Assembly (NCBI GenBank): GCA_020850355.1
Contig: JADZEX010000041.1
Span: 124,001-188,000 of the forward strand
Origin: Fimbriimonadaceae bacterium
GTDB taxonomy: Bacteria > Armatimonadota > UBA10988
Reading direction: 5' to 3'
Length of the DNA: 64,000 bases
Shown: one piece after another, positions 37,506 to 39,942 of the stretch
Position numbering within the stretch: position 1 is the first letter of the stretch
Layout of the letters: each line of letters starts with the position of its first letter
Notes under the pieces: model-generated
What the model saw: only the letters and a program-made list of their open reading frames with translations
Told to the model about the DNA's origin: nothing
Databases searched by the model: none
Program-made: the position numbers and the translations under genes

Positions 37506-39068
37506 TCAGGCGGCGCCGCCGCTGCCCTTGGCGCGCTGCTCTTCCAGCCAGCTCACCTTGTTGATGGCGTCGAGCAGGGCCTTCGCGCTGGCCTCAAAGA
37601 CGTCCGTGCTGGCGCCGCGGCCGGTGGTCTGGCGGCCCTGGTACATCACCTTGACCGTCGCCTGACCCATTGCGTCGGTGCCGCCGGTGACGCCCCGAAG
37701 CTGGAAGTCGGCGAGGTCGACCGTCACGCCGGTGGCGCGTTCAATCGCCCGGTAGAGCGCGTCGACGCCGCCGTCGCCGATCGCCGCGTCCTTGATCACC
37801 TCGCCGTCGGCCTCGATCACCACCACCGCGGTCGGCAGGGAGTCGGTCGCGGTGCTGGTGGTCACCTGGGCCTGCAGCAACTTGAACTTCGCGGGCACCC
37901 CGCGCACGGCGTCGTCCATCAGCGCCGCCAGGTCCTCGTCGAAGACCTCCTTCTTGCGCTCGGCGATCTTCAGGAACTGCTCGTAGGTCTGGTCCAGCTC
38001 GGCTTCGGCCAGGTGGTAGCCCAGCTCCTCCAGCCGTGCCTTCAGGGCGTGCCGGCCGCTGCGGCGACCCAGCGTCAGGCGGCTCTCGGGTACCCCGACA
38101 TCGGCCGGCGACATGATCTCGTAGGTGCTGGCGTCCTTCAACATCCCGTCCTGGTGGATCCCGGCTTCGTGCAGGAAGGCGTTCATCCCGACAATCGCCT
38201 TGTTGCGCTGCACCGCCATGCCGGTCAGCTTCGAGACCAGTTGGCTGGTCCGGTAGAGCTCCGTGGTGACCACGCTGCTGGCGGCCTGGTAGTGGTCCCG
38301 GCGCACCTTGAGCGCCATCACGACTTCTTCCAGCGACGCATTGCCCGCCCGTTCGCCCAGCCCATTGATGGTGCACTCGACCTGCCGCGCCCCGGCCTCG
38401 ACGCCCGCCAGCGAGTTGGCCACCGCCAGCCCCAGGTCGTCGTGGCAGTGCACCGAGACGATCCGCTCGCGCAGCAGCGGGATGCGCTCCAGCAGCGTCG
38501 CGATGATCCGGTGGAAGTGCGGCGGCGTGGCGATCCCGACGGTGTCCGGGATGTTGACGACATCGGCACCGGCCTCGACCGTCGCGGCGACCACATCGAT
38601 CAGGTACTCGAGGTCGGTCCGCACGGCGTCTTCGGTGCTGAACTCGACGGTGCAGTTGCCATGCTCGGCCGCCAGCGACCGCGCGAAGCGCACGCCGTCG
38701 ACGGCCATTGCCAGAACTTCCTCGCGCGACTTCCGCAGCTTCTTCTCGGTGTGTACCTGGCTGGTGGCGATGACGGTGTGGATGCGCGCCCGCGGCGACG
38801 CCTTGACCGCGTCGTAGGCGCGCTGGATGTCCTCCTGCCGGACCCGGCTGAGACCGCAGATCTCCGGCCCGCGCACCTCCTCGGCAATCTGCCGCACCGC
38901 CTCGAAGTCACCGGGCGACGAGATCGGGAAGCCGGCCTCGATCACATCGACCCCGAGTTTGGCGAGTTGCTGGGCGATCTGCAGCTTCTCCGGGCGGCTC
39001 AGGCTGGCGCCCGGCGACTGCTCGCCATCACGCAGCGTGGTGTCGAAAACCAGGATCCGATCGCTCAT
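37506..39068 (-). CDS. leuA: 2-isopropylmalate synthase
   Basis: Condenses acetyl-CoA with 2-oxoisovalerate in the first committed step of leucine synthesis. The 520-residue protein has the HMGL-type barrel motif FDTTLRDGEQSPG at the start and the metal-binding VHCHDDLGLAVANS. GLGERAGNASLEEVVMAL and EAGIHQDGML also match LeuA. The C-terminal LeuA regulatory domain (about 390-510) mediates leucine feedback inhibition. ATG at 39068 has a GGAGGAG Shine-Dalgarno at 6 bases. Expression is controlled by the leucine T-box leader described separately. No leuB, leuC or leuD is in the window; ilvD lies 15 kb away. Confidence 0.97.
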   Translation of the reverse strand: MSDRILVFDTTLRDGEQSPGASLSRPEKLQIAQQLAKLGVDVIEAGFPISSPGDFEAVRQIAEEVRGPEICGLSRVRQEDIQRAYDAVKASPRARIHTVIATSQVHTEKKLRKSREEVLAMAVDGVRFARSLAAEHGNCTVEFSTEDAVRTDLEYLIDVVAATVEAGADVVNIPDTVGIATPPHFHRIIATLLERIPLLRERIVSVHCHDDLGLAVANSLAGVEAGARQVECTINGLGERAGNASLEEVVMALKVRRDHYQAASSVVTTELYRTSQLVSKLTGMAVQRNKAIVGMNAFLHEAGIHQDGMLKDASTYEIMSPADVGVPESRLTLGRRSGRHALKARLEELGYHLAEAELDQTYEQFLKIAERKKEVFDEDLAALMDDAVRGVPAKFKLLQAQVTTSTATDSLPTAVVVIEADGEVIKDAAIGDGGVDALYRAIERATGVTVDLADFQLRGVTGGTDAMGQATVKVMYQGRQTTGRGASTDVFEASAKALLDAINKVSWLEEQRAKGSGGAA

Positions 39069-39123: not shown

Positions 39124-39155
39124 AAAAAGCCTCCATCTCGAACGAGACGGAAGCT
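39124..39155 (-). terminator. Regulated intrinsic terminator of the leuA T-box
   Basis: A 12-base stem (AGCTTCCGTCTC with GAGATGGAGGCT, two G-U or mismatch positions), a GTTC loop and a TTTTT run form a textbook intrinsic terminator. Its 5' arm directly follows the T-box sequence, so antiterminator formation excludes it. Confidence 0.93.
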
Positions 39156-39423
39156 CCGCGGTACCACTCGCATTGCCGCGCCCGGCCGGGCGCGACCACT
39201 CGGTCCGACAGCGCAGGCAGGCGGCCGCGCGATCGGCGGTCAGGGTAACGGGCGACCTGCCCGGCTGGCTCTACTACGCCCATGGGCGGTTCAAGCAGCG
39301 GCTCCGAGGGGAGGTTCGACCAGCAACGGCACCGGGCTTGCACCATCCCCGGCTCGCTGGACCCGCAGCACGGTCTACTGAGTCCTCATCAACGCCTTTG
39401 ACGTATCCGGTGGCCGAAGCCAC
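39124..39423 (-). ncRNA. T-box riboswitch (leucine) controlling leuA
   Basis: The roughly 300-base leader contains the T-box AGTGGTACCGCGG (39168-39156). Its UGGU can pair with the ACCA 3' end of an uncharged tRNA having discriminator A. Stem I marks are in order: GTTGATGAGGA...AGTA, the AGCGAG bulge, GGGGATGGTGCAAGCCC near the distal loop, and GAAC followed by CTC (39313-39311), then TCGGAGC. CTC reads leucine and fits the downstream leuA gene. The leader starts with a TTCG-capped hairpin (39423-39410) and ends in an intrinsic terminator. When leucyl-tRNA is uncharged it should pair and allow readthrough. This block and the promoter occupy most of the 454-base gap between leuA and ridA. Confidence 0.94.
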
Positions 39424-39429
39424 GCGGTC

Positions 39430-39458
39430 ATGGTAGGGCGCCGCCGGGGGGCTGTCAA
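39430..39458 (-). promoter_or_regulatory. Promoter of the leuA T-box transcript
   Basis: On the minus strand: -35 TTGACA (perfect), a 17-base spacer and -10 TACCAT. The predicted start at about 39423 coincides with the first hairpin of the T-box leader. Confidence 0.8.
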
Positions 39459-39522
39459 GGACAACTTTGCGGCGGCAGCAGGGAACGCCACGGCGACGGG
39501 CAAGCCGCCGGCGGAGCCGCCA

Positions 39523-39942
39523 ATGCCCGCTGATCCACCGCGCACCGCCTACTTTCTACCCGGCGCCGACCCGGACGCCTGGCCCTACAGCGAAGCCCTG
39601 CGGGTCGGCGAGTGGGTCTTCATTGCCGGTCAGGGACCGGTCGCCCCGCAGACCCAGCAGGCCGTCCTGGGCAGCATCGAGAGCGAGACGAGGCTGGTCT
39701 TGGAGCACACCCGCGCCCTGCTGGAGCTGGCCGGCTCGTCGCTCGCCGAGGTCGTCAAGGTGACCGTCCACCTCGCCGACATCGCCGACTTCGCGGCCTA
39801 CAACGCGGTCTATCGCGAGTACTTCAGCAGCTCCCCGCGGCCGACCCGGATCACCGTCCAGAGCGGCCTCTGGGGCGGCATCAAGATCGAGTTGGAGTGT
39901 ACTGCCTACAGTCCCCAGGCCGCCGCAGGAGCGTCACGATGA
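39523..39942 (+). CDS. RidA family (YjgF/UK114) protein
   Basis: RidA proteins hydrolyse reactive enamine/imine intermediates or act in related deaminations, and are small trimers. The 139-residue product has the family order GEWVFIAGQGPV, ETRLVLEHTRALLELAGSSLAEVVKVTVHLADIADF and YNAVYREYF, ending PTRITVQSG...IELECTAY. The Arg of PTR occupies the usual substrate-carboxylate position. ATG at 39523 has CGGAG at 6 bases; a longer frame beginning at 39430 overlaps the divergent leuA promoter and is low-complexity. The stop overlaps the GH4 gene start (ATGA), so this may be a pathway-specific member. Confidence 0.92.
   Translation: MPADPPRTAYFLPGADPDAWPYSEALRVGEWVFIAGQGPVAPQTQQAVLGSIESETRLVLEHTRALLELAGSSLAEVVKVTVHLADIADFAAYNAVYREYFSSSPRPTRITVQSGLWGGIKIELECTAYSPQAAAGASR

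Follow-up and report, generated by a model that had tools for sequence, protein, structure and literature searches.

The leader of leuA in the window analyzed here (64,000 nt of a Fimbriimonadaceae genome, phylum Armatimonadota) is almost certainly a canonical class I T-box riboswitch, i.e., a transcription-attenuating element with a full-length stem I, specific for tRNA-Leu(GAG). When the minus strand was searched with the Rfam T-box covariance model (RF00230), positions 39401-39140 matched model positions 1-219 of 219 at 76.2 bits, with an E value of 1.1e-16 for the 701 bases searched and of 2.5e-16 for the whole genome. A preliminary description of this DNA had proposed that a promoter, stem I marks, a CTC specifier, the invariant T-box core and a U-tailed terminator lie upstream of leuA, and all of these were recovered (Table 1). 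The promoter agrees with the consensus at 10 of 12 bases, a level at which shuffled sequences yielded 0.0 +/- 0.2 sites in the region; the stem I motifs and the CUC specifier, the latter within a GAA-N-XXX loop, were placed by the RF00230 alignment; the T-box bulge, UGGUACC, occupies 39166-39160; and the terminator segment has a predicted folding energy of -21.4 kcal/mol (ViennaRNA). The gene directly 3' of the leader is indeed leuA, its product scoring 722.7 bits with NF002086 and 679.8 bits with TIGR00973, both LeuA family models of NCBIfam.

Table 1. Features of the leuA leader and gene, from promoter to coding sequence (window coordinates).
Feature	Start	End	Strand	Basis
Sigma-70-type promoter: -35 TTGACA, 17-nt spacer, -10 TACCAT	39430	39458	-	Consensus match
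Stem I: GUUGAUGAGG kink-turn region, specifier loop, apical motifs AGUA, AGCGA and GGUGCAAG	39301	39395	-	RF00230 alignment
Specifier codon CUC (Leu) in GAA-C-CUC-C; partner, tRNA-Leu anticodon GAG	39311	39313	-	RF00230 alignment
Stem II (AGUA motif) and IIA/B element, the latter with a CCGUUA end	39246	39299	-	RF00230 alignment
Stem III hairpin, GUCGCGC ... GCGCGGC	39175	39196	-	RF00230 alignment
Antiterminator: helices CGAG/CUCG and GCGGA/UCCGU flanking the T-box bulge	39143	39170	-	Alignment, folding, compensating changes
Intrinsic terminator: hairpin of 14 bp at 39157-39126, then tail TTTTTCGTTTT	39118	39157	-	Folding
leuA (2-isopropylmalate synthase, 520 aa); start codon ATG at 39068, preceded by GGAGGAGCG	37506	39068	-	NCBIfam

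Although all 219 positions of RF00230 were matched, the score lies below the curated cut-off of the model (Rfam gathering score, 93 bits), and since 76.2 bits falls short of this value, a default Rfam scan of the window at that cut-off reported no match. The preliminary description had held that a covariance score below threshold would speak against a T-box, and the score is, literally, below threshold. However, leuA T-boxes from the same family (n = 3) likewise score less than 93 bits (88.1, 69.8, and 67.2), and among five well-known control genomes with T-box matches, two have matches above the cut-off and three only below it. Since same-family leaders and three of the five controls share this property, we infer that the sub-threshold score reflects the threshold itself and is no sign of a false match; together with these relatives and controls, the E value of 1.1e-16, which we consider decisive, outweighs it. 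The leader departs from the model in its apical motif, which is AGCGA in place of AGAGA, in several non-standard pairs of stem I, and in a GC-rich linker between the stem IIA/B element and stem III that RF00230 leaves unmatched. In the whole-genome search with RF00230, the leuA element ranked third among the genome's five T-boxes.

Besides the leuA leader, the genome has T-boxes before four genes, ilvB, ileS, valS, and pheS. Read in the same register, specifier and gene agree in all five cases (CUC-leuA, GUC-ilvB, AUC-ileS, GUC-valS, and UUC-pheS), and the agreement of the other four is a strong internal control for the leuA assignment. The preliminary reading had been made to depend on a tRNA-Leu with anticodon GAG, and the gene for this tRNA is present in the genome. 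Its encoded 3' end (...CCUCGGC-A) carries discriminator A, complementary to the U of UGGU. An earlier suggestion that the UGGU bulge fits a tRNA-Leu was borne out as regards the discriminator but not as a mark of leucine: because all five T-boxes of the genome have UGGU, the bulge adds no leucine specificity, which comes from the specifier instead. Genes for tRNA-Val(GAC) and tRNA-Phe(GAA) were also found, while tRNA-Ile(GAU) is missing from the genome's list of 44 tRNAs, an absence attributed to incomplete assembly. Some variation was seen among T-boxes of the aminoacyl-tRNA synthetase genes. Those of pheS (L005, L170, L172, and L173) match the model weakly (32-52 bits), with the apical motif changed to AGGGAGG and the shorter ones seemingly without stem II, and two of valS (L042 in genome G284 and L053 in G033) have the bulge UGGC, not UGGU, despite their valine specifier, GUC.

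By analogy with the known T-box family, in which tRNA binding and charge-dependent antitermination are the rule, the leader most likely turns on leuA as uncharged leucine tRNA accumulates. Transcription would start just downstream of 39430, and the nascent leader would form stem I, with its CUC specifier pairing with the GAG anticodon. The free ACCA end of uncharged tRNA-Leu would pair with UGGU (39166-39163) and hold the antiterminator in place, permitting transcription of leuA; with charged tRNA, the terminator hairpin would form and transcription would stop before the gene. Only one of the two hairpins can exist at a time, since a segment of the terminator's 5' strand, 39151-39143, is also part of the antiterminator. 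When the leader was folded alone (ViennaRNA), the antiterminator was not in the minimum-energy fold (-122.7 kcal/mol constrained vs. -128.6 kcal/mol free), as would be expected if tRNA is needed to form it, although the calculation gives no positive support.

The relatives of the leader bear on whether this structure has been kept. Among 48 T-boxes of the phylum, the antiterminator helices have 8 or 9 of 9 positions paired in all 48, and 9 of 9 in 34, across 14 different types of 5' arm, e.g., CGAG-GCGGA with UCCGUCUCG and AGGG-GCGGG with CUCGCCCCU. When arms were swapped, i.e., set against the 3' region of another T-box, 9 pairs were obtained in 22% of combinations and at least 8 in 69%, in a control that is lenient because the 3' partner was the best of many offsets. 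The helix therefore appears, from this comparison of sequences, to be maintained by compensating changes across the 48 T-boxes. The lowish covariance score (76 bits) and the non-standard pairs of stem I might be taken to indicate a decayed T-box, with leuA in practice constitutive or expressed from another start. We consider this very unlikely, since the promoter is intact and since T-box core, antiterminator, strong terminator and CUC specifier all persist, not only in the present leader but also in those of three leuA genes from the same family (L160, L166, and L168).

Translational T-boxes occur in Actinobacteria, and on that precedent the leader might act on translation, by masking the ribosome-binding site, and not on termination. 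This is more improbable still: the 14-bp hairpin and its U tail end ~45 nt upstream of the Shine-Dalgarno sequence, which lies outside the hairpin, and stem I is of full length. The presence of a terminator, the free Shine-Dalgarno sequence, and the full stem I also set the leader apart from the translational T-boxes that TBDB names class II (PMC7778990), while the sequence and structural features of class I were found, i.e., a full-length match to the model, a specifier fitting the gene, a UGGNACC bulge within an antiterminator that overlaps a terminator, and a matching tRNA. A peptide-type leucine attenuator or a chance match has the least to recommend it, and its probability is close to negligible given the E value of the RF00230 match and the four further T-boxes in the genome; moreover, no hit to the Rfam Leu leader was obtained in the leuA leader region at E values up to 1.

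As a class I T-box, the leuA switch itself is of a textbook kind, and what is useful about it concerns taxonomic spread and the evolution of T-boxes. One survey tabulated T-boxes in Firmicutes, Actinobacteria, Chloroflexi, Deinococcus-Thermus, and two delta-proteobacteria, the last with leuA T-boxes in Geobacter and Pelobacter (PMC2494555), and another described their range as "rather limited," comprising Firmicutes, Actinobacteria, Chloroflexi, Deinococcus-Thermus, and Geobacter (PMC3766115). We found no report of T-box riboswitches in Armatimonadetes or Armatimonadota in the open-licence papers searched, although such sequences may already be present in Rfam or TBDB. The preliminary description had remarked that a leucine T-box driving leuA in a non-Firmicute would bear on the spread of the family, and this proved well founded: while the phylum is absent from both surveys, T-boxes at E up to 0.001 were found in 151 of the 291 genomes of the phylum that were searched, about half, with 96 genomes above the curated cut-off. 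Counted from the genome table, the positive genomes belong to 33 of the 45 families of the phylum, and the leuA T-box recurs in many of them. Families f14-f20 have LeuA relatives, yet none of their genomes is among the T-box-positive ones. At the loci examined, the targets were leuA with CUC, sometimes CUG; ilvB and ilvD with GUC or CUC; valS with GUC; ileS with AUC; pheS with UUC; and a cimA-like gene with AUC, so named from its sequence and a 31% LeuA match rather than from a family scan. The ilvB T-box carries a valine specifier in the window's own order and a leucine specifier in several other families, meaning that the specificity of a single gene's T-box has changed. The leuA T-box is in itself an ordinary representative of its well-known family, and switches of this kind are common across Armatimonadota.

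Among the 79 named LeuA homologues from other phyla for which 300 nt or more of upstream sequence was available, 4 have a T-box ahead of leuA: two from Geobacteraceae (L140 and L144; 104.9 and 114.6 bits), one from a Nitrospinae MAG (L077; 101.2 bits), and one from an unplaced bacterium. The genome of a further locus, L066 (G303, Elusimicrobia), has two T-boxes, of 131.9 and 91.7 bits. Neither Elusimicrobia nor Nitrospinae is among the phyla named in the two surveys (PMC2494555; PMC3766115). The leuA T-boxes of Geobacteraceae (Geobacter sulfurreducens and Pelobacter; PMC2494555) resemble the present one in being a single CUC T-box directly before leuA; however, there is one T-box per genome there and five here, and the leuA proteins fall in different parts of the tree. 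As far as the cited account of it goes, the system of Marta et al. (1996; cited in PMC2494555) shares with ours CUC, tRNA-Leu, branched-chain genes, and control by termination, whereas in the present genome leuA is served by a leucine T-box of its own and ilvB by a separate one for valine (GUC), and the leader is GC-rich.

Whether T-boxes arose in Firmicutes and were transferred or go back to common ancestry has been left open (PMC3766115). It is possible, at a little short of an even chance, that the T-boxes of branched-chain amino acid genes (and of phenylalanine) are old in Armatimonadota, vertically inherited, and lost in Fimbriimonadia-like families, with no recent import from Firmicutes. 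If so, then together with the T-boxes of Elusimicrobiota and Nitrospinota, this would make the T-box family older and wider than the surveys state (PMC2494555; PMC3766115). Joint transfer of leuA and its T-box from Firmicutes was considered and is not favored, as T-box-bearing leuA stands apart from Bacillota in a protein tree of 22 rows from the phylum (12 with a T-box) and two from Bacillota, and the eight leuA of the phylum that do cluster with Bacillota all lack a T-box directly upstream. This case against transfer is only an indication, because support for the deep grouping is weak (83), Bacillota are represented by two rows, and, in some genomes (e.g., G223 and L055), a leuA without a directly upstream T-box is accompanied by a CUC T-box that precedes ilvD ~5 kb upstream of it. 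The phylum, in which 33 of 45 families have T-boxes and the targets are coherent, offers good material for testing ancestry against transfer.

Several observations concern the surroundings of the leader. The leuA start given in the list of open reading frames, 39173, falls within the riboswitch and does not appear to be the true start. Divergent from the leader lies a gene of the Rid family (enamine/imine deaminase; 39430-39942, plus strand), whose listed start overlaps the leuA promoter, so that this gene probably starts further inside the listed frame. Elsewhere, the window codes for a prepilin bearing a sequence motif associated with Armatimonadetes, in keeping with the phylum. Finally, a split U tract followed by GGG (TTTTT(C)G-TTTT-GGG and close variants) was seen 3' of the terminators of all five T-boxes of the genome (L001-L005), and the site at leuA, 39128-39115, is unique within the window.
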